Below, in pieces: positions 15,851 to 59,147 of a stretch of 64,000 nucleotides of DNA; the first letter of the stretch is position 1, and every line of letters begins with the position of its first letter. Both the position numbers and the translations under genes were made by a program. A model generated the notes under the pieces. That model searched no databases, was not told the DNA's origin, and saw nothing but the letters and a program-made list of their open reading frames with translations. Source of the DNA: Sphingobacteruim zhuxiongii (GTDB lineage Bacteria > Bacteroidota > Bacteroidia > Sphingobacteriales > Sphingobacteriaceae); the NCBI RefSeq assembly GCF_009557615.1, contig NZ_CP045652.1, positions 4,030,001 to 4,094,000 on the forward strand, given 5' to 3'.

Positions 15851-16054
15851 ATGGAAGAATTAAAAATAACACAAGATCAAGTATCAGCGAAACGAAAATA
15901 CAAGTCTCCTAGAGTCAGCATGGAGATCATCGTACTAGAGCATAGCATTGCTGCCGGATCAAATAATGTTAGTGTGGGCGGACCACAGGACTCATCACAA
16001 CCCGAAATCATTGATCAGGGTTTAGACGAGCGTACTTATGATATGGAATTTTAA
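15851..16054 (+). CDS. Short fimbrillin-associated peptide (locus A)
   Basis: A 67-residue, highly polar protein with no signal peptide or membrane helix. It aligns gap-free with the 51-residue peptide at 56697-56852. Identical positions here are Y17, P20, I26, L29, E30, I33, A34, A35, S37 and N39 (core LEHSIAAGSNN). The tail after the core is acidic and Gly/Ser/Gln-rich and ends DMEF; the other peptide ends NGDF. As in locus B, the next gene (31 bases on) encodes a fimbrillin-family lipoprotein. The conserved front part and divergent tail resemble the leader/core pattern of modified peptides, but that is inference. Function unknown. Confidence 0.8.
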   Translation: MEELKITQDQVSAKRKYKSPRVSMEIIVLEHSIAAGSNNVSVGGPQDSSQPEIIDQGLDERTYDMEF

Positions 16055-16085: not shown

Positions 16086-17669
16086 ATGAAAAAACATATA
16101 TACTTTCTATTTATATTATTTACTACCGGTACGCTTACGGTGAGCTGCAACAAGCAGGAATCTTCTCCAGCTATTGCACAGGCCGAAGGTGTTGAGATTA
16201 TCGTTCATGGAATTAAGGACGCATTATTACAAGACAACAACGCTCCTGCGGCTGCTAAAGCTAGTTTAATTCGCAATGGATTGAGTAGTACTGAGCACGC
16301 TGACGGGCAGACCGATTTCGATGGATTCAGCTGGGAATTATCGGCAGAGAGCAACGCCTCGGCGAGTCGTTTACAGAGTACTAACGCAACGGTTTCAAAC
16401 GCTGGAAATAAATCTGCACTGAAAGCTGCAATGGGTCGTCGTAGTATGGATACAGGGAAAAAGTTCCGCATCCTCTTCTACGAAGTGCAAAATGGCAATG
16501 AAGTGTACAAAGCTTCTGCAGAAATTACAGTTTCTTCGACCCGGCATATTGAAAAATTATTTAATAACGTCACATACAAATGGTACGCTTACTCTTACGA
16601 TGATGCAGCAGCTATCCCTTTGCCTAGCGACACCAACAATCCACAAATCCCTACAAGAACGAATGCTCCATTGCTATACGATAGTGGGACTTTCACAACA
16701 ACTCCTGGTAATACTTCAAAAGTAGATATCGAATTTGAGCATCAAATTTCTAAAGTTGAGGTAAAAGTTGATGCACAGCAAATGTATGCAAACAACTTTG
16801 TGACGCTGACAGCCAATTTTGTTGCGCTACCTTTAGTTACAAAATCCTTTGGTGTGAAAAGTGGTGCTTTAGGAACTGCTATTTTAAATACGACTACAAC
16901 AAACGAAACGATCACTTTTGCTGCCGATGGTTCAAACGCAATTCAGAAATCAACGAATGCCCTGTATACAGCAGCAGCTTTACCTTCCTTTTCAGTGAAT
17001 TTTACCAATGTGGTCTATAACAAGACAGGGATGAATATTACCCTTATTCGCCCAACGTTACCACAACTTGCACTTATTACGGGCTTTAACAGCGATGTTA
17101 AACTTATAAAAAGAGCCTTGGTTAATCTAAAATACAAAGGTGGTGTGATCGGTGATAAGGAGTGGGCACAAGGAATTTTATACTATGATCCAACCGACCC
17201 AGGAAATCCATATAAAATTTCTGAACCCTTTATGACAGGAACAACGCATCCATGTAATTATTATTGGAACTGGAACTCCTTAAAACCGCGTAGCATTACA
17301 GGCAATAAAACTACTGAATTTGGTGACCCTTGTCGGGAAGTATTTCCAAAAAATTCCTGGAGAACACCAACGCGACAAGACTTTACCGGCTTAAATGTAG
17401 CTATTGCGAATGTACCCAACAATGGTGCTGTATACTTCGATGCTCAAAATGGTGAACGCGTTTATTTCCATGAGGCGGGATGGATTACTAACAATAATTG
17501 TTCGGTATCCAATACGAATGATGGTATGTACTGGTCGAGTGAGGCATACAGTACTGCAAACGGCTATGTATTGGAAATCGACGAACGCGGTGGAACTGGC
17601 GCGGGTAACGAGATCGCTCATTATTCAAAAATATACGGCATGAGCATCAAATGTGTTCGTCAGTATTAA
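16086..17669 (+). CDS. Fimbrillin-family surface lipoprotein (locus A)
   Basis: A 527-residue lipoprotein with lipobox C21 (GTLTVSC). The N-terminal half shows fimbrillin/Mfa-like features: the YKWYAYSYDD segment (about 161-170), the DIEFEHQISKVEVKVDA strand typical of Fim/Mfa proteins (about 215-232), and a second beta domain. The C-terminal third carries a conserved block (NPYKISEPF, FGDPCREVFP, WRTPTRQDF) also seen in the paralogue at 54865-56676 (NPYRFYATN, RQDPCAQVYP, WRQPTADDL). It is probably a cell-surface adhesin or pilus-tip subunit. Cotranscribed with the short peptide upstream and followed by a strong terminator. Confidence 0.82.
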   Translation: MKKHIYFLFILFTTGTLTVSCNKQESSPAIAQAEGVEIIVHGIKDALLQDNNAPAAAKASLIRNGLSSTEHADGQTDFDGFSWELSAESNASASRLQSTNATVSNAGNKSALKAAMGRRSMDTGKKFRILFYEVQNGNEVYKASAEITVSSTRHIEKLFNNVTYKWYAYSYDDAAAIPLPSDTNNPQIPTRTNAPLLYDSGTFTTTPGNTSKVDIEFEHQISKVEVKVDAQQMYANNFVTLTANFVALPLVTKSFGVKSGALGTAILNTTTTNETITFAADGSNAIQKSTNALYTAAALPSFSVNFTNVVYNKTGMNITLIRPTLPQLALITGFNSDVKLIKRALVNLKYKGGVIGDKEWAQGILYYDPTDPGNPYKISEPFMTGTTHPCNYYWNWNSLKPRSITGNKTTEFGDPCREVFPKNSWRTPTRQDFTGLNVAIANVPNNGAVYFDAQNGERVYFHEAGWITNNNCSVSNTNDGMYWSSEAYSTANGYVLEIDERGGTGAGNEIAHYSKIYGMSIKCVRQY

Positions 17670-46376: not shown

Positions 46377-47288
46377 ATGAGCTCTTCCAAAAACTCAGAT
46401 TTTCTAGAAGAAGTAAAACAGATTGATTTAGTCTATTACCTGTCAAGTTTGGGTTATGAACCAATTCGAATACGAGGAAATGAGTTTTGGTATTTGTCTC
46501 CTCTAAGAATAGAAAAAACGGCCTCTTTCAAAATCAATAGAAAACTAAATAGGTGGTATGACTTTGGTCTTGGCAGAGGCGGAAGTTTGATTGATCTGGG
46601 GATACACCTAGAGAATTGCAGTATTGCAGATGTCATTTCGAAAATAAAAGACAGCAAATTAATTTTTCCGAGAAATCTAACACTTGCCGTACCATTGGAG
46701 TATCGCAAGCAAAATAAAATTGAGATTCTATCGAATACATCGTTACGTTCGGTTGAGCTTTTGGAATATTTACAACATCGGCGTATCGCTATCAGTATTG
46801 CCGATTTGTATTGTCGAGAGTTAACATATCGAGTGAAAAACAACCAATATAAGGCCATCGGATTTGCGAATCGTTCTGGCGGTTTCGAATTAAGAAATCC
46901 TATTACAAAAATATCCACCTCTCCCAAAGATATTAGCCATTTCGCTACTGGAAATCGAGAAATCCAAGTATTTGAAGGCTTTATGGATTTCCTCACCTTT
47001 AGAACACTAAATAAACAGATCGATGATCAGAGTGCCGATTTTCTTATCCTCAATTCCGTCTCATTATTCGAACGAGCAGAACAAGTTCTTGCCACTTACG
47101 ATCGCGTTGGGCTCTTTTTCGATCAGGATGCTGCAGGCAGAGCGTTGACAGAACGCGCTCTTTGCTTAGGTGCAAAATTCTACGATCAAAGCGAATTATA
47201 TCAAGGATACAAAGATCTGAACGATTGGGTGATGGAATACGGTAAACGCCAAACATTACATCCTACCGGGACGCTGCGTATCAAGTGA
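46377..47288 (+). CDS. Mobile-element primase (CHC2-like plus Toprim)
   Basis: A 303-residue protein. The N-terminal DnaG zinc-ribbon-like fold (about 10-85) keeps YLSPLRIEKTASFKINRKLNRWYDFGLGRGGSLIDL but has lost the zinc cysteines. A Toprim domain (about 195-290) shows EGFMDFLTF and VGLFFDQDAAGRA. This cysteine-free arrangement is usual in primases of Bacteroidota mobilizable elements. It probably primes complementary-strand synthesis after transfer. Starts the cluster primase - accessory protein - relaxase - coupling protein. Confidence 0.85.
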   Translation: MSSSKNSDFLEEVKQIDLVYYLSSLGYEPIRIRGNEFWYLSPLRIEKTASFKINRKLNRWYDFGLGRGGSLIDLGIHLENCSIADVISKIKDSKLIFPRNLTLAVPLEYRKQNKIEILSNTSLRSVELLEYLQHRRIAISIADLYCRELTYRVKNNQYKAIGFANRSGGFELRNPITKISTSPKDISHFATGNREIQVFEGFMDFLTFRTLNKQIDDQSADFLILNSVSLFERAEQVLATYDRVGLFFDQDAAGRALTERALCLGAKFYDQSELYQGYKDLNDWVMEYGKRQTLHPTGTLRIK

Positions 47289-47307
47289 GAATCAAAAATG
47301 CTAGCAT

Positions 47308-47673
47308 ATGAGATCCAAGAGCATTAAGAAAACTAAAAAAGATTGTTCGGTCAATATCCGAATAACGTCGTCAGAATATCAGAGGCTCCAAAAGGAATGT
47401 GAAAAGACGATCTACCCCAATTTGTCCGTTTATCTCCGAGGAATGATTTTTCGGAAGCCAACCATCATGCGGATTCGCAATGAATCCATGGACGATATTC
47501 TGATCGAGATTTCAAAAATTCAAAATTCCATTTGCTTGCTGCATGAAGACAACGACGACCTTCAATTTCCCCATACCCAAACACGGTATTGTGGGGAACT
47601 TCAGCCTTCTATTGCTTACCAGATTATCGAGCTTAATGAATTGATCAAAAAACTATTAGCCTTATGTTTGTAA
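47308..47673 (+). CDS. Mobilization accessory protein (MobC/MbpA-like, ribbon-helix-helix)
   Basis: A 121-residue basic protein. The segment VNIRITSSEYQRLQKECEKTIYPNLSVYLRGMIF (about 15-48) is the ribbon-helix-helix signature of relaxosome accessory proteins. The C-terminal part (about 60-121) is helical. It should bind oriT and assist the relaxase. It overlaps the relaxase start by 10 bases. Confidence 0.8.
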   Translation: MRSKSIKKTKKDCSVNIRITSSEYQRLQKECEKTIYPNLSVYLRGMIFRKPTIMRIRNESMDDILIEISKIQNSICLLHEDNDDLQFPHTQTRYCGELQPSIAYQIIELNELIKKLLALCL

Positions 47674-48779
47674 GAGTACACCATGTAAAGAGCTTCCATC
47701 ACGCCTTAACTTATAATGAGCGAAAAGTGCTTGAGGGGAACGCACAATGCCTACAGGCATGCAACTTTCCATTGCTTAGAAATAATTTAACAAAGGAATT
47801 AACGAAGAAATATCTCAACCACTGGGAGGCAAAGAATGTAACATCTCAAATTAAGAGCTTGCATTTCCTTCTGTCCTTCTCACCGAAAAATCAGCATTTA
47901 GATCAAGGTCTTCTCACAGAAATTGCAAGAAATTATATGCGTTTAACGAGCCTTAGCCAACAGCCCTACCTGATCTATCAACACTTTGATACTGCCATCC
48001 CTCACCTACATATAATTTCCACATGCATTGATCAATCTGGAGCAAAAATAAACACAAGTATGTTCGTGTATCGTCGTTCACTGCCTGCTGTGAAAGAGCT
48101 AGTTCGTTTGTACGATCTTCACACAAACAAAATTGTTCCCGCATCATTCCTTGCAAAACAGCCGTCCCCTTGCAAAATTGAATATGGCAGCGTTCCAAGC
48201 AAACAAGCAATTGAAAATATTGTAGACTATTTACTAAAAAATTACTGTGTTTGCGATATCTACAGTTGGACAGCACTGTTAAGCCGTTGGCATATCAAAC
48301 CAATCATTTTAACTCGCGAGCCTCGACAAACTTATGGAATGCTCTATTATATCACGGACGAAAAAAATAAAACAGTTAGTAGCGGAATTCCAGCAAGCAG
48401 GCTGCCGTCAGCTCCCACTTGGCAGAAGCTTTCAACCTATTTCAAGGAAAATGAAAATCGAAAACAAAAAGCAGAAACGACAATCAAAAATGTTTTACTT
48501 TATGCTTCCTGTTCAACCGAGAACTCCTACGCAAGCTTGGCTCGAACCTTAGTAAAAAATGGTATTGTTATCACTCATGCAAAAATCACTAAAGATGAAG
48601 ATCCACTAGCTATCGTCATCAGTTTTGTCGATCGTGTAGCTGTGCGGCTTAGTGAATTAAATCTCGCCATCAGCGTTGAAAACATGTTAAAAATGGCCGA
48701 ACTAAGTGCATCTATCAGCCACGGTAAAAATAAAATTTTCAGGGATACCAACAACATCACCTTGTCAAAAAATGGCTAG
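47664..48779 (+). CDS. Relaxase/mobilization nuclease (MobB-like)
   Basis: A 371-residue relaxase-family protein. The relaxase domain (about 5-150) has an early YNERKV motif with a candidate catalytic tyrosine and the metal-binding histidine block QHFDTAIPHLHII (about 107-120). The C-terminal region (about 190-371) is less conserved. It nicks oriT and leads the DNA strand through the Tra channel. It overlaps the accessory gene before it and the coupling-protein gene after it, so the three are co-translated. Confidence 0.88.
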   Translation: MFVRVHHVKSFHHALTYNERKVLEGNAQCLQACNFPLLRNNLTKELTKKYLNHWEAKNVTSQIKSLHFLLSFSPKNQHLDQGLLTEIARNYMRLTSLSQQPYLIYQHFDTAIPHLHIISTCIDQSGAKINTSMFVYRRSLPAVKELVRLYDLHTNKIVPASFLAKQPSPCKIEYGSVPSKQAIENIVDYLLKNYCVCDIYSWTALLSRWHIKPIILTREPRQTYGMLYYITDEKNKTVSSGIPASRLPSAPTWQKLSTYFKENENRKQKAETTIKNVLLYASCSTENSYASLARTLVKNGIVITHAKITKDEDPLAIVISFVDRVAVRLSELNLAISVENMLKMAELSASISHGKNKIFRDTNNITLSKNG

Positions 48780-50757
48780 CGGAGAAAACATACAAGCATT
48801 AAGAAAGATTGCGGACATGTGCCGAACTATAGCTTTCTGTTTACTACTCGTACATATTTATTATGTGGGGTATGCTGCATTCCAGGAGAAGAACTTGACG
48901 TGGTTGCTTACCGATCGTATAATGCTCGCCATAAAAGAGACGGGGTTACTAAATGAATTTCACCGGCCCAAAATTATATGTCTGATCTTTCTTTTGTGCT
49001 CACTAATTGGTACACAAGGGAGAAAAGAAAAAACCTATCGTTGGTCGGTAGCCTTGATTTGCAGTATATTCGGACTGCTAGTGTTTTTGCTTTGTCCGAT
49101 AGTCCTACATTTCCACTTCAGCGCATTTTTCAATATTTCTAACTATAGTCTACTATGTGTCGCCGGACTGTTGCTATTTATCAAGGGAGTTACCGGAGCT
49201 AGCCGCATTTTAAAAAAACAGCTAATAGAAAAAGATATCTTCAATAGAACTAACCAAACCTTTCCTCAACAAGAAGAGCGAATTGATAATGAGTATTCCA
49301 TTAACCTTCCCGCGGAATATCGTCTGGGAAGGAAGACTCGACGCAGCTGGATCAACATCATCAACCCGTTTCGGGCGTTGCTCGTTTTGGGGAGTCCAGG
49401 TGCAGGAAAATCATACTTCGTCATACGCCATGTCATCTCGCAACACATCCAGAAAGGATTCACCATGTTCATTTACGACTTTAAGTTTGATGATCTCACT
49501 AAAATCGCCTACCATCACTGGAAAATCTCAAAGAAGCGTGCGCATAACGACACAAAGTTTTATTGCATCAATTTCGACGATCTCAACAGAACGCATCGTT
49601 GTAATCCCCTAGAGCCCTCTGCAATGAATGATATTTCCGATGCAGCAGAGTCAGCACGCACTATTCTATTGGGCTTAAATAGGGATTGGATTAAGCGTCA
49701 AGGCGACTTCTTTATCGAATCTTCTATCAACTTACTGACTGCAGTTATTTGGTATCTCAAACGTTATCAAGATGGCGAGTATTGTACATTACCACACGTT
49801 ATTGAGCTCATGCAGCAGGATTACGATCGCCTATTCTCTATGCTCCGTACAAATAAAGAGATCGAAGTCTTGATTAATCCTTTTGTAAACGCTTATCTAA
49901 ATAACGTTATGGAACAGTTGGAAGGTCAAGTTGCTTCAGCAAAAATCGCGCTAGCGAGATTATCTTCGCCGCAACTCTATTATGTGCTTTCGGGCAACGA
50001 TTTTAATCTAGACATCAATAATCCGAATGATCCAAAAGTAATTTGTATGGGAAACAATCCGCAGAAAATCCAAACTTATGGCGCTGTACTGTCCTTGTAC
50101 GTAAACAGGTTAATCAAGCAGGTAAACCGTAAAGGGATGCGAAAATGCAGTTTGGTTTTTGATGAATTTCCGACGATTTATTTAAACAATATCGATAGCC
50201 TCATCGCCACAGCGCGAAGCAATCGTGTTTCGACCTGCCTGGGGCTACAAGATATTAGTCAGCTACGCAAAGATTATGGTCGCGATCTAGCTGACGTTAT
50301 TATGAACATTGTTGGAAATGTTATCAGTGGACAAGTTTCCGGCGAGACATCTAAGCTACTCTCGGAGCGATTTGGAAAAATAATGCAAGACCGTCAAAGT
50401 TTTTCCGTAAACAGCTCCGACACCTCGGTCAGCTATTCCCAACAGCTGGAAATGGCAATCCCTACCTCGACAATTTCTAATTTATCCGCTGGGGAATTTG
50501 TCGGTGTAGTTGCCGATGACCCGCTGACTCCAATCGAACTAAAAGGTTTTCATTCAAAAATCATTAATGATCATCATGCTTTAGCTAACGAGGAGGCGTC
50601 CTACACGGCATTGCCTCTTAGAAACTTCGCAAACGAAGATATCATCCAGCAATCATACTTGCAGATAAAAAGAGAGGTGTTGGAAATTGCATATTCAGAA
50701 ATGGACCGATTGCTCAGCAATCCGGAACTTCAACATCTGGTCATTCGAAAAAACTAA
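48772..50757 (+). CDS. Type IV coupling protein (VirD4/TraD-like; MobC in Bacteroidales naming)
   Basis: About 661 residues from the ATG at 48772, which overlaps the relaxase stop by 8 bases; the frame extends upstream to 48706. Several N-terminal membrane helices (about 15-150) precede a cytoplasmic ATPase with Walker A GSPGAGKSY, Walker B SLVFDEFPTIYL and the coupling-protein block ICMGNNPQK. The C-terminal part includes the QDISQLRKDYG motif. It brings the relaxosome to the secretion channel and pumps DNA. Last gene of the mobilization operon and probably near the right end of the element. Confidence 0.92.
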   Translation: MASGENIQALRKIADMCRTIAFCLLLVHIYYVGYAAFQEKNLTWLLTDRIMLAIKETGLLNEFHRPKIICLIFLLCSLIGTQGRKEKTYRWSVALICSIFGLLVFLLCPIVLHFHFSAFFNISNYSLLCVAGLLLFIKGVTGASRILKKQLIEKDIFNRTNQTFPQQEERIDNEYSINLPAEYRLGRKTRRSWINIINPFRALLVLGSPGAGKSYFVIRHVISQHIQKGFTMFIYDFKFDDLTKIAYHHWKISKKRAHNDTKFYCINFDDLNRTHRCNPLEPSAMNDISDAAESARTILLGLNRDWIKRQGDFFIESSINLLTAVIWYLKRYQDGEYCTLPHVIELMQQDYDRLFSMLRTNKEIEVLINPFVNAYLNNVMEQLEGQVASAKIALARLSSPQLYYVLSGNDFNLDINNPNDPKVICMGNNPQKIQTYGAVLSLYVNRLIKQVNRKGMRKCSLVFDEFPTIYLNNIDSLIATARSNRVSTCLGLQDISQLRKDYGRDLADVIMNIVGNVISGQVSGETSKLLSERFGKIMQDRQSFSVNSSDTSVSYSQQLEMAIPTSTISNLSAGEFVGVVADDPLTPIELKGFHSKIINDHHALANEEASYTALPLRNFANEDIIQQSYLQIKREVLEIAYSEMDRLLSNPELQHLVIRKN

Positions 50758-50819: not shown

Positions 50820-51731
50820 CTACCGAACAAGCAAGGGGTCGTCCAGAGCAAAGGAATGAGAGAGTTCTACCGCGCCTTTGTCTGGTAGACATTTTAATTT
50901 GGCCACCTTTACTTGACTAATAATTAGCTCCAAGCTGCTAACCATCTGATTAAAAAGATTTGCGTTCCATCGAATCGCCGAGCAGCTCGGAAGCACTGCT
51001 GTTAGTGCTTGAATCTCTTTTTGTTGCGATAAATCGTTGTAAGATGACTGTTCTAAGCGAACCAGCGCATTCAGGGGGAATTCACTACGACGATAGCAAT
51101 GCGTTTTACCACTCCAGGGTGTGCCAAAGATTAGTACCTGGTTGTCTCCGCAAATACGAATCGCTGGATTATCATCGTTGAGAAGACCAAATTCAGGAAG
51201 GTACTTCATCCATAACCGGGAGTGCGTGCTTTTTCCCGTGCCACTTTTGCCTAAAAAAGCAACCGCAGCGTGGCCATTTTCTACAACTGAAGCATGTATC
51301 AATAGAGTCCTATAAGCTAAACATGCTTGCCCAAAAGCAACCATAATTAACCAACTTAATTTGTTGGTATTAAACAATTCTTCGGCTTCTGGATAAATGA
51401 CGGAACGGCTGAAATCCTTTTCACTACACATTAGCCAGTCGCTCTTTTGCCTGGTCCCTAGAATTGAGGTAAAATAGTTGTCGGAGCTTTCTTCAAATCG
51501 AAAACGTTCCAGCCAAATCACGGATATATCACTCAAGATTTTTCGCGGCGGCAAGTTAGAAATGTTTGTATTTCTTTTAATCGCGATGGTCATCATCGGA
51601 TCGATCTTGGGTGCGGCGCACCTAAACGGCAAAAAGCTGGGCAAAGCCCGATCGATTTCCAGACCCAAATAATCCACGATTTTAATGACATGGTCCGCAA
51701 CACGATAATAAAAAGTTGCATGTATCTCCAT
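50820..51731 (-). CDS. HPr kinase/phosphorylase-like (HprK-related) ATP-binding protein
   Basis: A 303-residue protein. The C-terminal half has the HprK-type P-loop GKSGTGKST (161-169), the acidic NDDNPAI (185-191) and a later PWSGKTH segment, preceded by LIHASVV. The N-terminal half is not the usual HprK domain. HprK-related kinases occur in peptide-modification clusters (for example tailoring kinases of some lasso clusters) and in HprK/PqqD-related systems. It is the last of four tightly spaced genes (8 bases after the ABC gene). Likely substrate: a protein or peptide of the same cluster. Confidence 0.85.
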   Translation of the reverse strand: MEIHATFYYRVADHVIKIVDYLGLEIDRALPSFLPFRCAAPKIDPMMTIAIKRNTNISNLPPRKILSDISVIWLERFRFEESSDNYFTSILGTRQKSDWLMCSEKDFSRSVIYPEAEELFNTNKLSWLIMVAFGQACLAYRTLLIHASVVENGHAAVAFLGKSGTGKSTHSRLWMKYLPEFGLLNDDNPAIRICGDNQVLIFGTPWSGKTHCYRRSEFPLNALVRLEQSSYNDLSQQKEIQALTAVLPSCSAIRWNANLFNQMVSSLELIISQVKVAKLKCLPDKGAVELSHSFALDDPLLVR

Positions 51732-51739
51732 TTTTCTTC

Positions 51740-53383
51740 CTACTGTTTGACGGTCATCGCGTTTTCACGCATTTCCAAAATGTGTTTAAAATATTGCTTT
51801 TGACTGAGATCGTGCGTAACAAAAATTAAAATTTTGTCAGCTCCAATTTCCAGTAGATTTGTAACAAGCTTATGAGCTGTCTGTTGATCCAGAGCAGAAG
51901 TAACCTCGTCGAAGAGCCATACCTTAGCCGGTAGTAAGATTGCTCGAGCGATGGCTAATCGTTGTATCTGTCCTTCCGATAGGCCAAATCCGGATTCTCC
52001 AACAACGGTATCCAGTCCTTCTGGTAAATTCCATACAAATTCGGCGCAAGCCACTCCAAGCGCATGCTTCAATTGAACTTCACTGCTCCAATCATTGCCA
52101 AATAACAAATTTTCCCGGATGGTACCATTAAACAATTTCTCACCTTGGGGAACGAATGCAAAGTTACAACGGTACGTAGCGTTCATGAGTCGATTTTGCG
52201 ACCCTTCTTTTAAGACAATTGCACCTGCTTGCGGATCTATAAGTCCCAGAATTGCTCTTAACATGGTGGACTTGCCCAAGCCACTTGAGCCGAAAACAAG
52301 TGTGGGTTCACCACGCTTAAATAAAAAGCTCAAATTGCACGTTAACAACTTACCCTCCACTTGCAAGGATACATTTGATAGTCTTAGTTCATCGAGCTCA
52401 TTTAAGACACTATGCTCCGCAATTTCCTCGCTAGGTTCATTCAAAAGTTCTTCGAGCCGCTCGACCGAGCTCCCCACGCGAACCAGTGCAGGTAAATAAC
52501 CTACTAAGGTAGCCACAGGCGCTTGCAAGCGAATCACAAGTTGCAAAAATGCGGACATCGTCCCTACGGTGATTAATCCATCATTCAAAGATAATATCCC
52601 CCAAACGAACGTCACAATATAACTGATACTAAACCCCAATCCCCATATTCCTCTGGAAAAAAGAGAAAAGCCAATTAATCGCTTTTTAATACCAAAAATT
52701 TCGCCTTGATCTTTCTCGATGCGCTCCCATCGTGGTTTATCTTGGTTCATCGATCTAATCAACAAGCGCAACCGCAGGTTGTCTTGTATAGTCTTCCCCA
52801 GCTGACTCTCGGCCAGCTTAAGTGATTTTTGAAGATCGCGTAGTTTACGAAAATAGAACTTGGAAAATAATAAAAGCGGAGTGATTAACAGCAATACCGC
52901 TGCTAACCAAGGATCCATCCAGTAAAGAAACCAGGTGGCCGCTACAATTTTAAGGAGACTAATCAGGCAAGCGATAAGCGTTTGCGCAGCAGCAGTCACG
53001 ATCTCCTGGGTGTCGTTTAAAACGCGCACCATTAAGTCTCCAGTATGCTTTTTTTGCCCATCCCAAGGCACAGAAATTTGTTTTTTAAGGACCAGCTTCT
53101 GCAAATCCACTAACATTAAGGCTTTATTACGCTCATTGAGAAACGCAGCAAATTGCATGCAAGCAAACGACAGGATGATACATGAAGCGGTTACCAATAG
53201 CAACATGCTGAGGCTTTCGCTGCCATGATGCACAGCGCGGTCTATCGATCGTTTAGAAAACCAAATAAACGCTAAACTGAATGATAGCCCTAGGAGTTCA
53301 AACAGAAAATAATAAAATAGTTTGTATTTATAGGTCTTAGAAAACCGCAGAATCCAGTGAAGCTGATGTTTTGTTATCATCAC
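51740..53383 (-). CDS. ABC exporter, fused membrane and ATPase domains
   Basis: A 547-residue half transporter: an ABC membrane domain with about six helices (about 20-300) and an ATPase domain (about 335-540). The ATPase has Walker A GSSGLGKST (365-373), signature LSEGQ (468-472), Walker B VWLFDE (488-493) and switch H524. No peptidase C39 domain precedes the membrane part, so any leader removal would need another enzyme. It lies 8 bases after the nucleotidyltransferase gene. By context, it exports the product of the cluster. Confidence 0.92.
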   Translation of the reverse strand: MMITKHQLHWILRFSKTYKYKLFYYFLFELLGLSFSLAFIWFSKRSIDRAVHHGSESLSMLLLVTASCIILSFACMQFAAFLNERNKALMLVDLQKLVLKKQISVPWDGQKKHTGDLMVRVLNDTQEIVTAAAQTLIACLISLLKIVAATWFLYWMDPWLAAVLLLITPLLLFSKFYFRKLRDLQKSLKLAESQLGKTIQDNLRLRLLIRSMNQDKPRWERIEKDQGEIFGIKKRLIGFSLFSRGIWGLGFSISYIVTFVWGILSLNDGLITVGTMSAFLQLVIRLQAPVATLVGYLPALVRVGSSVERLEELLNEPSEEIAEHSVLNELDELRLSNVSLQVEGKLLTCNLSFLFKRGEPTLVFGSSGLGKSTMLRAILGLIDPQAGAIVLKEGSQNRLMNATYRCNFAFVPQGEKLFNGTIRENLLFGNDWSSEVQLKHALGVACAEFVWNLPEGLDTVVGESGFGLSEGQIQRLAIARAILLPAKVWLFDEVTSALDQQTAHKLVTNLLEIGADKILIFVTHDLSQKQYFKHILEMRENAMTVKQ

Positions 53384-53391
53384 TGTTAACT

Positions 53392-54486
53392 TTACTTGAA
53401 CGACTTGATGTACAACTGATAAATTGGAAAACTTAGGGCTTCCATCGGTGCTACGCCTAAAAATCGTCGGAAGTTTTCGAAAAGTCTTTCTTGCCGATCA
53501 ACACGCCCTCCCGGATTATTTTGATCAGGGTGCAAAGGATCAAAGAAGCCAAAATTCCCTGTTCGTAGAATGTGATCTGTCATCCACTCGGCGCCTTTAT
53601 ATGGGATAATAGGGAAAGGTAGATATTCCTCTGGCAGGTGAAACAAATCCACTAACATTCGATGTAATAAATGGGCCCATTTCAGCATGCCAAGTTTAGC
53701 ATACACCTCTCGCAGCCGATCATGATCTAGCCGTTTTCCATAAGAGAAGTATAAGCGGCAAGCGTCACAAAGTTGGCGCAGCCCAATACCGTAGGTTACT
53801 TGATGTTTAAGTATATGTGCATTTACCTGCACAATGTTCAACAAGTCACTTGGTATCTCGACCGATGTATGCCCAAATGTTCGGCTGATAGGGCGCTTCA
53901 GTTCTTCATGAACAAAATCTTCGACAAACGACTGGATGAAAGGGTTACGAAGTTGGACAATACGTCGATGCTGTTCAACTTCAAAGCCCCGCCAATAGAA
54001 TCCACAACTGTATCTATTCTTACTTAGAAGCGATCCTTGGTTTTCAGCAACCAAGTGCTGCGCATCTTCAAAATCATCTTTAAATGGGAAAAACCAATCA
54101 ATATCCCCACTAGTTCGCAAGCTTGGATCTGCATAGTATGTGGAAACTCCATGCCCTTTTTGGAGAACACATCTCAGGCCTTTTTGTTGAAAGAGGTGAT
54201 ACTGTTGAGCAATGGCCTTTTCCATCGCTGCATTTTTCCGTTGCACGCGGTCCACACGAACCAGCCATTTCAACATGATGTCTGCGGGCGGTAATAGCTG
54301 TTCAGGAAGTTGCTGAACAGCAGTGGCAACCATTGCTTCTACGGTTTGATGTATTGACATCTGAAAGACTTCACGCCAATCCTGACCAGATAAATTTTCA
54401 AAGAAAACGGGATTTGGAACTTCTCCCCATAGCGATGCCCGAAGGGCCTCCAACATCGCCTGAGTTGTTGGTCGTGTTAAAATCAT
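53392..54486 (-). CDS. Nucleotidyltransferase-family protein (NTP_transf_5 type)
   Basis: A 364-residue cytoplasmic protein. The Pol-beta-like core is seen at LQKGHG (108-113) and YYADPSLRTSGDIDWFFP (117-134), the K-G and R-x-x-G-D-I-D motifs of the NTP_transf_5 family, with D128 and D130 as likely metal ligands. The rest is helical. Such proteins appear next to PqqD-like and HprK-like genes in peptide or surface-polymer clusters. It could transfer a nucleotide to a peptide or protein; the substrate is not known. Confidence 0.85.
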   Translation of the reverse strand: MILTRPTTQAMLEALRASLWGEVPNPVFFENLSGQDWREVFQMSIHQTVEAMVATAVQQLPEQLLPPADIMLKWLVRVDRVQRKNAAMEKAIAQQYHLFQQKGLRCVLQKGHGVSTYYADPSLRTSGDIDWFFPFKDDFEDAQHLVAENQGSLLSKNRYSCGFYWRGFEVEQHRRIVQLRNPFIQSFVEDFVHEELKRPISRTFGHTSVEIPSDLLNIVQVNAHILKHQVTYGIGLRQLCDACRLYFSYGKRLDHDRLREVYAKLGMLKWAHLLHRMLVDLFHLPEEYLPFPIIPYKGAEWMTDHILRTGNFGFFDPLHPDQNNPGGRVDRQERLFENFRRFLGVAPMEALSFPIYQLYIKSFK

Positions 54487-54491
54487 GTCGC

Positions 54492-54761
54492 TTATTCAAT
54501 AATTACTTGATTGGCTTTCAATTGATTTACCAGTAGCTTAGAATCTCTATGGGCAGTTTCAGCATCAATTTCATACTCTTGCATCAGTAAATTGGCCACA
54601 TCTGCTAAGTCAAAATCTCGTCCTTTTAGTGCTTCCATGAGGAATGCCGAGGTGGCATTAAAGCTAAAAACACGCGACATATCCACGGTACCTTGATCCG
54701 GGTCTACGACAAGGTAATCCTTCCCAACTCTTCTTAATATAAACGGCTCTTTTAGTCTCAT
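54492..54761 (-). CDS. PqqD-family peptide chaperone (RRE-like)
   Basis: 89 residues from the ATG at 54761, the natural start (RLKEPFILRRVGKDYLVVD); the frame is open to 54821 but that extension is not PqqD-like and runs into the terminator zone. The PqqD/RRE winged-helix shape is visible: beta strands, then NATSAFLMEALKGRDF and DLADVANLLMQEYEIDAETAHRDSKLLVNQL. PqqD-type proteins bind leader peptides and present them to modifying enzymes. First gene of the four-gene operon; 5 bases before the nucleotidyltransferase gene. Confidence 0.88.
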   Translation of the reverse strand: MRLKEPFILRRVGKDYLVVDPDQGTVDMSRVFSFNATSAFLMEALKGRDFDLADVANLLMQEYEIDAETAHRDSKLLVNQLKANQVIIE

Positions 54762-54800
54762 ATTAGGATATTTAAATTCATTGCTGCACGGGCAAGAATA

Positions 54801-54841
54801 GAAAAAATTAAAACAGAGCAATCCCTAAAGGAGTTGCTCTG
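54801..54841 (-). terminator. Rho-independent terminator after the fimbrillin gene
   Basis: On the minus strand, CAGAGCAA...TTGCTCTG (54814-54841) is followed by TTTTAATTTTTTC. It ends the peptide-fimbrillin transcript 24 bases after the stop codon and lies just before the PqqD operon, which is thus either read through at a reduced level or has its own promoter. Confidence 0.8.
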
Positions 54842-54864
54842 TCTGAAATAGAATAGATATATTG

Positions 54865-56676
54865 TTAATTACGCACGCAACGAACGTTCTTTAGTGTTGA
54901 AGTTAATACATCAATACCAACCGCGCTTACCAACAATTCTCCAGTACGTTTCGCTCTAACAAATGGCGTTCCTGTAGGAAATCCCAAAACCTCCTGCTGT
55001 TCGGTTGAGGCCAAATGTCCCCAAACACCTAAATTCACCAAACCTAAGATACTCGCTGGCGCATTCGATGCCCAAATAGCGGACTGCGAACCATAGCTAC
55101 CGCCTAAGAGGTTAGCTATCGCTGACAAATCAAGATCCAAGAAACCGTTTGGAAGTACGCCTAAACGTGGCAATTGCCCATTGTAGTAAAAACGTAAATT
55201 ATTGGAACGAGCATCGAACGCGGAATTTGCCACGCTCGTTGTGTTGTATTGCGCATACTTACCTGTAGCACTTCCGTCACCCGGTGTTGATTCCTGAGTT
55301 TCATCCCTTGCTCCCAGCAATTGTCCTACAGAGCTTAATAGGGTCGATAAAAGCCCTTGACCATTCGAAATGCTATATAAATCATCGGCAGTTGGTTGAC
55401 GCCAAACCCCTTGCGGATATACCTGCGCACATGGATCCTGTCTGCTCGCAGCATTCACAAATTGTCCAGGCGTTAGCGCGCCATAGGCAAAATAACTCTT
55501 AGCATCCGATCGCTGCGCATTTGTTGCGTAGAATCGGTAAGGGTTACGTGTACCAGCCGCAAAATAGAGGTTTGAGCGCGACCATCTTACCGGTTGTCCC
55601 GAATTCGAATTAGTTACGGTTGATAAAGCAGATTCTACCAAATTGTAAAGGATACGGTGCGTCTTACCAATTTGAGGTGTTACAGATACTGCCGAGAAAT
55701 TAACTGGTGTTGCCGAAAAAGTTCTCGTGACTGCAGTCTCACCCGCAACTCCATCAGCCGCATGTGCTAACTGAAGCGATGCTACGCTCACAGAAACGGA
55801 ATTCGCTGTGGTTGAATCTACGGTATAAGCGTAAGCTACTTTGCGATCGTTAAAGCCAGTCTCTACGTTGGAAAAACTAGCCCAATTTATCGTTTGCGTA
55901 TGATTTTGCAAATTGGAATATTGTCCAGTGAAGATGTCGATTGTTCCCGACTTCACCGCAAGTCCAGTCACTGCAACCGTAGCACTATTCATATTACCAA
56001 ACATTCCCATTGAATTCAATTCAATTGCCAATCGAGAGGTTTTATGTTTAAAGACGATACCTAGAGGAAGCGCTCCTGTAGCATTTAACGGCACTGATAA
56101 GGTTCCTGCCGCATGCAGCACGTCTTTGCCGCCTGCTAATGCGATTGCGCTGCTACCGCTTGTTACATCTGGAACATCGTCGGTATTGTTATAACTCAAC
56201 GCATACCATTTGTAGTTCTGGCCAGCAACAATAGCAACTTTTCCAGTGGAATTTGCCGTTAAGGCATTGGAGCTTACGAAGGTCCCATCTTCTTTATAAA
56301 GAAAGAGGCGATATTTTACTCCTGGCCCAATCGCTTCAGCACGTGCTGCTCCGCTGTTGGACTTCAAGTTTGTGCCTTGAATTCTTATGCTACTACTTTG
56401 CTCAAGATGGTTGTCGACCGAAACGACGGCATCAAACTCTTCATAGGAGCGTACTAATGGCTTAGACTCGCTCTTCAAAGCCGCTTTTTTGTCTCCCGAA
56501 TTGTCCAAGTTTTCTTGAATTCCCGAGATACTGACGCTTAGTTGCAATTTATCGTTAGTTTCCACTTTTTCGATATCCTTCGACTTATTACAACTTGCCA
56601 CAAACTGGCTGACCATCGCTAATATAAGAGCACTAGCTACTTTATTAGCAAGATTTTTCATTAATACTGATTTCAT
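54865..56676 (-). CDS. Fimbrillin-family surface lipoprotein (locus B)
   Basis: A 603-residue lipoprotein with lipobox C29 (FVASC); an internal ATG at 56661 is an alternative start. It contains the fimbrillin-like YKWYALSYNN segment (about 155-164), FKHKTSRLAIELNSMG (about 207-222) and a C-terminal block paralogous to 16086-17669 (NPYRFYATN, RQDPCAQVYP, WRQPTADDL). The C-terminus is longer than in locus A, with a Gly/Ser-rich stretch near 460. A surface adhesin or pilus-like role is likely. The short peptide gene is 20 bases upstream. Confidence 0.82.
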   Translation of the reverse strand: MKSVLMKNLANKVASALILAMVSQFVASCNKSKDIEKVETNDKLQLSVSISGIQENLDNSGDKKAALKSESKPLVRSYEEFDAVVSVDNHLEQSSSIRIQGTNLKSNSGAARAEAIGPGVKYRLFLYKEDGTFVSSNALTANSTGKVAIVAGQNYKWYALSYNNTDDVPDVTSGSSAIALAGGKDVLHAAGTLSVPLNATGALPLGIVFKHKTSRLAIELNSMGMFGNMNSATVAVTGLAVKSGTIDIFTGQYSNLQNHTQTINWASFSNVETGFNDRKVAYAYTVDSTTANSVSVSVASLQLAHAADGVAGETAVTRTFSATPVNFSAVSVTPQIGKTHRILYNLVESALSTVTNSNSGQPVRWSRSNLYFAAGTRNPYRFYATNAQRSDAKSYFAYGALTPGQFVNAASRQDPCAQVYPQGVWRQPTADDLYSISNGQGLLSTLLSSVGQLLGARDETQESTPGDGSATGKYAQYNTTSVANSAFDARSNNLRFYYNGQLPRLGVLPNGFLDLDLSAIANLLGGSYGSQSAIWASNAPASILGLVNLGVWGHLASTEQQEVLGFPTGTPFVRAKRTGELLVSAVGIDVLTSTLKNVRCVRN

Positions 56677-56696
56677 GATTCAAAAATGTTGATTTA

Positions 56697-56852
56697 TTAA
56701 AAGTCCCCATTTGAACCGCCACCAGTACCACTATCCCAATCGCTAAGCGATTCGGAAGAATTGCCGGAGGCCGCGGCAATACCTTGCTCTAACTCTACGA
56801 TGAACACCTGAAATATCGGTGCTTCGTAAACTTTTTTTACGTTGTTTTCCAT
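56697..56852 (-). CDS. Short fimbrillin-associated peptide (locus B), candidate precursor peptide
   Basis: A 51-residue peptide. Front part: Y9, P12, I18 and the core LEQGIAAASGN (21-31), identical at ten positions, without gaps, to the locus-A peptide at 15851-16054. The tail is Ser/Gly/Asp-rich (DWDSGTGGGSNGDF, 38-51). No signal peptide, cysteine or membrane helix. It precedes the fimbrillin gene by 20 bases and lies upstream of PqqD, nucleotidyltransferase, ABC exporter and HprK-like genes. Conserved front and variable tail suggest leader and core. Modification and export are inference. Confidence 0.8.
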   Translation of the reverse strand: MENNVKKVYEAPIFQVFIVELEQGIAAASGNSSESLSDWDSGTGGGSNGDF

Positions 56853-57284: not shown

Positions 57285-59147
57285 ATGGAACCAAGCATAC
57301 CAAAATTTCTCAAAAAAAGACGTTCTGACTTGGACGCGCTTCGAGCGTTAGCTATCCTCATTGTGTTCGGCTATCATTTAAATATACCTTTCTTGAAAAA
57401 CGGATTTATCGGAGTGGATATTTTTTTCGTGTTGTCGGGCTATTTGACTACCGCAGTGTGTCTTGAAAATCCAAAAAATCTTCGTAAAGAATTAATATCG
57501 TTTTATAAGCGTAGAGCTAACAGGTTAATTCCAGCATTATTCTTTATGCTGCTCTTCTGCGGATTATTAATTTGGATTTTGGTTCCATTAAAAACAATCG
57601 ATTTTGCACAAAACGCATTATTAAGCTTATCGTTTACCTCAAATATTTACTATTACCTCACCTCCGGATATTTTGCCACTAGTTCACAGTTGAACTTTTT
57701 GTTACACAGCTGGTCGCTTTCCCTAGAATTTCAATTTTACCTCTGTTATCCATTACTTATATTCGTTTTCCAAATTAAGGGCAGACAATCCCGCCAACAG
57801 CTTGAAAATCGTTTCCTACTACTCCTATTAATTTCTTTTATTTGTATGTTAATTTTGAGTGTACAAGACGAAAGAGCTGCATTCTATCTTTTGCCCTCAC
57901 GGCTGTGGGAATTTATAAGCGGTGCATTAGCCTTCCTCTCCTATAAACGTGTCGTAAACGGTTTATCCAGTAGATTACGGCAAGTAGGTGCCTTTGTTTG
58001 TTGGTTGATTCTTCTAGCCAACACGCTCCTTGGAGGTCATGTAATTGGGATGGAGGGCTGGCCTTGGATAGTTGCACTCACCGTGCTATCGGTAGTTGGA
58101 ATCATCTTATTTGATGTTCAAGTTTTTGAATCAAATATCATTACTTGGCTTGCGAAAAATTCATACGGAATCTATCTTTGGCACTGGCCACTAATTGTAC
58201 TATGTACATATTTAGGAGTAAGCCTATCCTTCACAGTTTCCGCTGTATTGATCGTGTTAACTATCTTATTTGCAAATGTAAGCTATCAATTCATAGAGTC
58301 TAAAAATCTTTTTACAAACACGAAGCTTCAAATTTTAGGGCTAGTTACTTTAAGTTTAAGCGCGATCTTAGTTCATCCAAAGGCTAAAGATGTTATTATG
58401 AATAGTCAACAACTTCGTGACTTTCAGTTATTACATCAATACAAAACTGAGAAAACACCTTTGCAGTACGGTTTTCTGACTACACATCTACAACACCATG
58501 AACCGTTTAATTTGCTCAATATCACAAGTCGATTAAAGCTATCAGATTCTGGAGGTAACTATTTACTGCTCGGCGACTGCCATGCTGGAATGTTTTCTTA
58601 TACGCTCAAACGTATCGCCCAGCAAAAGGGAATCAATCTAATTGTATTCAGTATGGACGAAACATTCCCTGCATCCAACGCTTTAGGAAAATTTGTTGGC
58701 CCGCAGGATCAAATGAATTATATATTTAACCAGCTCATCCCCTCGCACTACCAAAAACTGGATAAAGTTATCCTAATGGCAGATTACTCCAATTACTCGG
58801 CGAATGAGCTGAAAGCATTCTTTACGCACAATCGATCCTATTTTAGCCAATTCAAACTACCCATCGTATATATAGGGCAAACTAAAAAATATCGGATTGA
58901 GTTTCCGGTAGCCTCATCCCAACATGAGCGTTGGAAAATTCCGTTAGCGCAATATGAGCTATCTGCGCCATATCGTGTGAACAGATTCATCAAAACACTT
59001 CCTGAGATACATTACGTTGATCTGCTAAGCTCTCAATCGAGCAACGCTGGAAAAGACGGTCAACTATTCATGTATGATACCAATCATTACACTATCGGTG
59101 GGACGGAGAGGCTCTCGAAATTACTAGAAACAAGCATTTTCAAATAA
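57285..59147 (+). CDS. Acyltransferase-3/SGNH fusion protein (OafA/YrhL type)
   Basis: A 620-residue membrane enzyme. The N-terminal acyltransferase-3 domain (about 12-365) has DLDALRALAILIVFGYHL, a GVDIFFVLSGYL motif and about ten helices. The C-terminal SGNH domain (about 395-620) has the block-I motif GDCHA (residues 430-434) and the C-terminal DTNHYTIGG. The usual serine of GDSH is a cysteine here (C432, TGC at 58578-58580). AT3-SGNH proteins O-acetylate cell-surface polysaccharides. The acceptor is unknown; the capsule-type gene at 62756-64000 hints at surface glycan. Confidence 0.9.
   Translation: MEPSIPKFLKKRRSDLDALRALAILIVFGYHLNIPFLKNGFIGVDIFFVLSGYLTTAVCLENPKNLRKELISFYKRRANRLIPALFFMLLFCGLLIWILVPLKTIDFAQNALLSLSFTSNIYYYLTSGYFATSSQLNFLLHSWSLSLEFQFYLCYPLLIFVFQIKGRQSRQQLENRFLLLLLISFICMLILSVQDERAAFYLLPSRLWEFISGALAFLSYKRVVNGLSSRLRQVGAFVCWLILLANTLLGGHVIGMEGWPWIVALTVLSVVGIILFDVQVFESNIITWLAKNSYGIYLWHWPLIVLCTYLGVSLSFTVSAVLIVLTILFANVSYQFIESKNLFTNTKLQILGLVTLSLSAILVHPKAKDVIMNSQQLRDFQLLHQYKTEKTPLQYGFLTTHLQHHEPFNLLNITSRLKLSDSGGNYLLLGDCHAGMFSYTLKRIAQQKGINLIVFSMDETFPASNALGKFVGPQDQMNYIFNQLIPSHYQKLDKVILMADYSNYSANELKAFFTHNRSYFSQFKLPIVYIGQTKKYRIEFPVASSQHERWKIPLAQYELSAPYRVNRFIKTLPEIHYVDLLSSQSSNAGKDGQLFMYDTNHYTIGGTERLSKLLETSIFK

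Follow-up and report, generated by a model that had tools for sequence, protein, structure and literature searches.

A PqqD-like, NTP_transf_5, ABC exporter and HprK-like kinase gene set of Sphingobacterium as a candidate maturation and export system for multi-copy peptides paired with fimbrillin-like lipoproteins

Introduction

The closest described relatives of the system considered here are lasso peptide gene clusters that include a kinase. According to one article (PMC9266682), the HprK-like kinase of the paeninodin cluster phosphorylates the precursor prior to folding, lasso kinases require a His-Lys-Asp-Asp set, and in pseudomycoidin biosynthesis a protein annotated as a nucleotidyltransferase puts one or two hexoses on the phosphate, directly or not. 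Lasso B1 proteins require a YxxPx(hydrophobic) pattern in the leader, and in the bsf cluster the recognition element (RRE) for ribosomally synthesized and post-translationally modified peptides (RiPPs) strongly accelerates the action of the kinase on the precursor (PMC10368454). Here we analyze a stretch of 64,000 nucleotides (the window; contig NZ_CP045652.1, positions 4,030,001 to 4,094,000) that is part of the one-contig genome (4,322,926 bases) of Sphingobacteruim zhuxiongii, and within it a peptide gene and a fimbrillin-like lipoprotein gene followed by a four-gene operon for a PqqD-like protein, an NTP_transf_5 protein, an ATP-binding cassette (ABC) exporter and an HprK-like kinase. We propose, with a probability of about 0.6, that the operon provides the common machinery that matures and exports multi-copy RiPP-like precursors, whose linear acidic cores would associate with fimbrillin-like lipoproteins.

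An earlier reading of the window made from its letters only (the sequence-only reading) had held that this cluster fits no standard class. That view was abandoned, because the gene set equals the parts of a kinase-type lasso cluster (precursor, B1 protein, kinase, nucleotidyltransferase and transporter) without the B2 protease, and it is best read as lasso-type A, B1, K, N and D without B2. Literature searched on fimbrillin, PqqD, HprK, RiPP, lasso and Bacteroides/Prevotella, with most subscription journals outside coverage, contained no description of such a system, and the accessible portion of a paper on RiPP mining in Bacteroidales (PMC10352776) mentions neither fimbri nor nucleotidyltransferase.

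Results

Organization of the gene cluster

Peptide gene, lipoprotein gene, terminator and operon were all found on the minus strand, as the sequence-only reading had placed them:

56697..56852, minus strand: precursor peptide gene, 51 aa, with leader Y9-S29 and an acidic, Cys-free core
54865..56676, minus strand: fimbrillin-like lipoprotein gene, 603 aa, of a family with a FISUMP-type C-terminal part
54811..54844, minus strand: terminator hairpin in the interval between lipoprotein gene and operon (folding -18.5 kcal/mol, z -5.5)
54492..54761, minus strand: PqqD-like RRE protein gene, 89 aa from the ATG at 54761 (PF05402, E 3.7e-13; homologue starts)
53392..54486, minus strand: NTP_transf_5 protein gene with a conserved KG...R..GDID motif (PF14907, E 2.9e-37)
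51740..53383, minus strand: ABC exporter gene, transmembrane and ATPase parts without a peptidase domain (Pfam)
50820..51731, minus strand: HprK-like kinase gene; H146, K167, D186 and D187 (homologue alignment, predicted structure)

The peptide and lipoprotein genes are 20 bases apart, and the operon runs in the order PqqD, NTP_transf_5, ABC exporter and HprK-like kinase with gaps of 5, 8 and 8 bases. The hairpin is accompanied by a U tract, and it was absent from the list produced by a simple consensus terminator scan. The PqqD gene was present as described earlier, but its start is most likely the ATG at 54761, which yields 89 aa as in most relatives, rather than the TTG at 54821 that had been assumed.

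The operon enzymes and the S24-like protein

Family models bore out the PqqD and NTP_transf_5 assignments, both over the cut-offs of PF05402 and PF14907, the latter with 129 bits versus a cut-off of 31.2; the KG...R..GDID motif falls in conserved columns in 34 sequences. NCBIfam lasso B1 models matched the PqqD-like protein below cut-off, and the ABC protein matched transporter domains only, with no C39 peptidase in the Pfam scan. For the kinase, there was no Pfam match at E 0.001, a search of PDB sequences by means of its profile yielded no convincing match (HPr kinase 1ko7 at E 0.35), and the cut-offs of the NCBIfam models HprK_rel_A, HprK_rel_B and ScmC were not reached, the window kinase and its counterpart in locus L080 scoring 14.6-20 bits versus 125-200. 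Its predicted model (predicted local distance difference test, pLDDT, 89) matched the PEPCK/HPr-kinase fold, in agreement with the original assignment, and H146, K167, D186 and D187 are invariant in 14 homologues and may be equivalent to the lasso-kinase set. The absence of a lasso B2 protein also held: the B2 leader protease model PF13471 had no match in the own genome, in a search that was positive in two of 14 control genomes. No lasso C macrolactam synthetase was present among the ten neighbourhood proteins scanned, a genome-wide search not having been made.

The sequence-only reading had stated that there is no leader peptidase. This was contradicted by a candidate, an S24/signal-peptidase-like protein that occurs in exactly the genomes of the genus that have the kinase (see below). 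Its gene in the own genome (4006187-4006618) lies outside the window, ~74 kb from the cluster, and the product keeps Ser and His. Across 19 rows of the family S41 and H79, the catalytic pair, are invariant; two scanned members exceed the PF00717 cut-off, and NCBIfam signal peptidase models scored below theirs.

A multi-copy peptide family

Neither Pfam nor NCBIfam has a model for the multi-copy family of this peptide; scanning 35 members against both collections gave only stray matches, of one or two members each. The genome set searched (n=59) comprised the own genome, 35 of the same genus and 23 of the same class. A profile of 17 homologues (E 0.01) matched in 30 of the 59, every one within the genus, with 1 to 15 copies per positive genome and 11 matches in the own genome. 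At the same threshold neither 11,932 reversed open reading frames (ORFs) nor five shuffled sets gave a match, against 17 for the real ORFs. A group of orthologues located elsewhere in six genomes (not the window copy) was used for ratios of nonsynonymous to synonymous substitution (dN/dS). Of the 15 pairs, ten gave 0.08-0.15 and three gave 0; the remaining two, with low dS, gave 0.21 and 0.31. A chance ORF was rejected on the distribution of the profile matches and on the purifying selection indicated by these ratios.

Four leader residues (Y9, P12, E22 and S29) are invariant in a 35-row alignment. Of 62 distinct peptides, 58 carry the motif Y-x2-P-x9-E-x6-S; the exceptions are three Bacteroidales forms shorter by one residue and one degenerate copy. 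At the hydrophobic sixth position of the leader, 32 of 38 peptides have I, L or V, and the window's own peptide has Phe. The cores of the 58 full-motif peptides have 22-41 residues, all are net negative, none contains Cys and 55 contain Trp. S29 is the sole Ser or Thr at a fixed position across these peptides, and in 11 of the 58 cores the last ten residues hold neither Ser nor Thr.

Pairing of peptides with fimbrillin-like lipoproteins

Every one of the 36 genomes of the genus has either both peptide and lipoprotein or neither, the lipoprotein having been searched with an independent alignment (E 1e-10), and their copy numbers are correlated (r = 0.97; 173 and 179 matches). In mapped loci, 39 of 46 well-scoring peptides have the lipoprotein gene directly downstream on the same strand, and the other seven have it at most 2 kb away in a different arrangement. 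A lipoprotein gene was present in all twenty loci picked around peptides, most of them distant from any PqqD gene; the single peptide of genome G015 has none adjoining. A second pair lies in the window itself:

15851..16054, plus strand: second peptide gene of the family, start codon uncertain
16086..17669, plus strand: fimbrillin-like lipoprotein gene of the second peptide, 31 bases downstream

The window lipoprotein has no Pfam or NCBIfam family match of its own; among 40 family members scanned at E 0.01, 12 matched Mfa_like_1 and 10 FISUMP, and the window copy neither. Its predicted model (pLDDT 82) gave partial matches to Bacteroides adhesins and the Mfa2 anchor (best E 2.7e-8, others weaker; template modelling score by target up to 0.50). 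Because Cys29 of the lipobox (46/46), Cys416 (40/46) and Cys600 (43/46) are kept, the alignment suggests a lipid anchor and one disulfide.

Co-variation within the pairs was measured on 38 distinct pairs with a regular expression that fixes the leader at 21 residues; "fixed spacing" therefore means that all 38 fitted it. Mantel correlation with lipoprotein distance, uncorrected for shared ancestry, was 0.68 for the core and 0.42 for the leader, and the equally uncorrected partial correlations were 0.62 and 0.25. This pattern is compatible with common enzymes constraining the leader and with each core being adapted to its own lipoprotein, and joint duplication of pairs contributes to it too.

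For 39 peptides, as much as 700 bases of upstream sequence was also scanned automatically for repeats. A perfect repeat of at least 14 bases was detected in L109 only (23 bases), and it may be a shared promoter sequence because two homologous pairs diverge there. In L114 (10446-10695), imperfect inverted repeats (28 nt, 86%; 24 nt, 96%) lie 180-200 bases apart just upstream of a lipoprotein gene, an arrangement that could possibly be an invertible promoter.

Co-occurrence of enzymes and peptides across the genus

The full-length kinase, PqqD and the S24-like protein are confined to one and the same group of 25 among the 36 genomes of the genus, and NTP_transf_5 exceeds its cut-off in all 25 and additionally in G020. 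The peptide is present in all of these 25 and in five of the 11 others (Fisher p 2.4e-4, which is no clean probability because the genomes are related). Operons lacking peptides, for which the sequence-only reading had suggested looking, were thus not encountered among the kinase-bearing genomes of the genus.

Four of the five peptide-bearing genomes without the enzymes show decayed lipoprotein genes or a deletion-scarred operon. In G002, G015 and G034, which are drafts without the kinase, open frames longer than 480 aa were found in only three of 17 lipoprotein matches, some of these being pieces of one gene; among the stronger matches of the kinase genomes, those listed, one falls short of that length. 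In G020, which retains the NTP gene, a single frame (L206, 6713-7234) joins the beginning of a thioredoxin-like gene to the terminal part of the kinase gene, as a deletion of the intervening genes would leave it, and we read it as a deletion scar. The earlier idea of an operon working on the peptide, and of a peptide that goes with the lipoprotein, gained support from the co-occurrence within the genus, the near one-to-one pairing, the RRE-type leader and the lipoprotein decay in three enzyme-less genomes. Five genomes (L120, L122, L128, L129 and L131) were also seen to carry a different PqqD gene, adjoining genes for proteins of ~350, 152 and ~400 aa and lacking kinase or NTP genes like those described here.

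Neighbouring genes and loci outside the genus

The enzyme set has a strong link to polysaccharide genes. A second PqqD-NTP-ABC-HprK set of the own genome (L062) stands just before Wza/Wzc genes. Of the 25 genomes, 13 have a peptide or lipoprotein gene within the sequence retrieved near kinase, PqqD or NTP genes. Several loci have genes for a DUF5106/thioredoxin-like lipoprotein (~300 aa) and the S24-like protein inserted between the pair and the ABC gene.

Beyond the genus, the order S24-PqqD-NTP-ABC-HprK-Wza-Wzc was found in Elizabethkingia, Pedobacter and a Bacteroidales metagenome-assembled genome (MAG), among 80 loci retained out of at least 538. In a sample of 395 genomes of the phylum searched with profiles made from the genus, 14 had the kinase and four of those a peptide match, three being of this genus. 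The peptide search of this sample was weak (6/395 genomes; matches of G241 and G316 inside 323-aa frames were not counted). Among 51 named loci from other genera, nine had peptide-profile matches, and a strict motif scan of their 5,095 small ORFs gave 11 matches, eight of which look genuine by eye; shuffled sequences gave 1.5 on average and 5 at most. A full-motif peptide sits between Wzc and a large protein in Bacteroides caecigallinarum (L243) and in a Phocaeicola MAG (L245), and the large protein of L243 is fimbrillin-like, its Mfa_like_1 score of 24 bits falling slightly short of the cut-off of 27. The large proteins following Bacteroidota peptides in L243 (14287-15984) and L183 (13910-16096) have a fimbrillin-like-looking start and a C-terminal part unlike FISUMP by eye, for which a Pfam scan named no family. 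In Prevotella and Bacteroidales (L271, L281, L285 and L282), small YxxP peptides were also noticed near kinase, S24 or PqqD genes, and their boundary, ...AGS or ...S, resembles that of the family.

On the downstream side of the window operon, a region (46377-50757) with genes for a relaxase (47664-48779) and a type IV secretion system coupling protein (48706-50757) stops 62 bases from the operon end, and the cluster therefore abuts a mobilisable element. Divergent from the peptide gene, an Acyltransferase-3/SGNH protein gene (57285-59147) has relatives in polysaccharide-type loci such as L080.

Discussion

The peptides are probably linear, acidic, phosphorylated or phosphoglycosylated products that serve fimbrillin-like surface proteins, the chemistry being argued from analogy. 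Given the Y/P/hydrophobic lasso spacing of the leader, the H-K-D-D residues and PEPCK/HPr-kinase fold of the kinase and the lack of B2, we propose a route of RRE-guided phosphorylation, transfer, S24 cleavage and ABC export. The PqqD-like protein would bind the leader and hand the peptide to the HprK-like kinase, which would phosphorylate it. The NTP_transf_5 protein might then modify the phosphate, by sugar or nucleotide transfer, a sugar being expected from the PsmN precedent. The S24/signal-peptidase-like protein, encoded elsewhere, would cleave near the invariant leader Ser, the ABC protein would export the linear acidic core, and in the envelope the core would join the fimbrillin-like lipoprotein encoded beside it. 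S29 may be either the residue preceding the cut or the phosphate acceptor, because it is the sole Ser or Thr at a fixed place in full-motif peptides. None of 38 Sphingobacterium cores ends in Ser (one Bacteroidales peptide, in L254, does), so the acceptor would differ from the lasso precedents.

The genomes directly show which genes are present, the leader motif, the purifying selection, the co-occurrence across the genus, and the pairing and co-variation. A number of observations weigh against the proposed maturation and export role. The C-terminal Ser used by lasso kinases is missing from the Sphingobacterium cores, the S24 gene is not in the window cluster, few peptide matches were obtained outside the genus with the profile made from it, and genome G009 is a genuine exception: it carries four peptide/lipoprotein pairs whose frames are open, and the searches for kinase, PqqD and S24 had no match in it. 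In addition, in 12 of 25 genomes the sequence retrieved near kinase, PqqD or NTP genes contained neither a peptide nor a lipoprotein gene, and in 20 of 25 PqqD or the kinase lies at most 5 kb from Wza/Wzc-type polysaccharide genes. Because of this last proximity, a polysaccharide role for the enzyme set retains some probability: the PqqD/NTP/ABC/HprK/S24 set could serve exopolysaccharide assembly, making a primer or modifying another peptide there, with the peptide/lipoprotein pairs forming an independent, often nearby surface system. The conserved order in Elizabethkingia, Pedobacter and Bacteroidales, beside glycosyltransferase-sized genes, is in keeping with such a role, as are nine genomes that have the NTP gene in a cluster of this kind and PqqD not in the fetched stretch. 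We nevertheless consider it unlikely, since the 64-kb window has no Wza/Wzc gene and its operon comes directly after the pair, genes of the set are mixed with pairs in L070, L074, L076, L078, L079 and L082-L085, and the enzymes track the peptides across the genus. Proximity to Wza/Wzc was likewise not seen in G007, G010, G012, G013 and G033.

The leader-guided peptides might instead be merely cut and exported as lipoprotein partners, for which the S24 and ABC genes would be enough, while the kinase and NTP protein act on another substrate. The lack of any fixed Ser or Thr outside the leader, and of either residue near the end of some cores, would be in accord with this. It seems rather improbable in view of the kinase occurring together with PqqD and S24 in 25 of 25 genomes and of the precedent of the bsf RRE for kinase action on a precursor (PMC10368454). 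A lasso cluster whose lasso-forming enzymes are encoded elsewhere is suggested by an accessory set that is the same as in kinase-type lasso clusters and by the below-cut-off matches of PqqD to B1 models. This candidate was rejected for a distant B2, PF13471 being without a match in the one-contig genome and positive in two control genomes, and with cores that do not end in Ser we regard it as highly improbable. An extension of the maturation and export proposal is a long shot: the products would form a new class of acidic linear RiPPs carrying phosphodiester-linked sugar, would attach to fimbrillin-like adhesins or become part of them, and would link these adhesins to the exopolysaccharide that the neighbouring Wza/Wzc system exports, one enzyme set equipping a dozen different adhesins.

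If maturation of the peptides by the operon is correct, lasso-type tailoring enzymes would have been reused in a major phylum as a general factory for adhesin-serving peptides, an unnamed family of small proteins would gain a function, and RiPP chemistry would be tied to type V pilin-like lipoproteins. The system would also allow a direct test of the roles of HprK-like kinases and NTP_transf_5 proteins beyond lasso clusters.

Compared with known systems, the locus shares an HprK-like kinase beside a PqqD-like protein with the NCBIfam HprK-related kinase systems and with SynChlorMet ScmC, and its kinase scores far below the cut-offs of their models. With type V pilins and fimbrillin-like adhesins (Mfa2, Bacteroides adhesins) it shares the lipobox Cys, the fold match and the Mfa_like_1 matches of some family members; here the proteins additionally end in a FISUMP-type part that has a conserved Cys pair, and nearly every copy examined stands beside a leader-peptide gene. 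The paeninodin, pseudomycoidin and bsf (Bradymonas) lasso clusters have in common with it a YxxPx(hydrophobic) leader, a PqqD-type B1 protein, an H-K-D-D HprK-like kinase, an NTP_transf protein and an ABC exporter. In contrast to these phosphorylated or phosphoglycosylated lasso systems, B2 is absent from this genome and the conserved protein in its stead is S24/signal-peptidase-like, the cores are long and acidic with no terminal Ser, and each genome can carry many precursors, nearly all of them paired with a fimbrillin-like lipoprotein.

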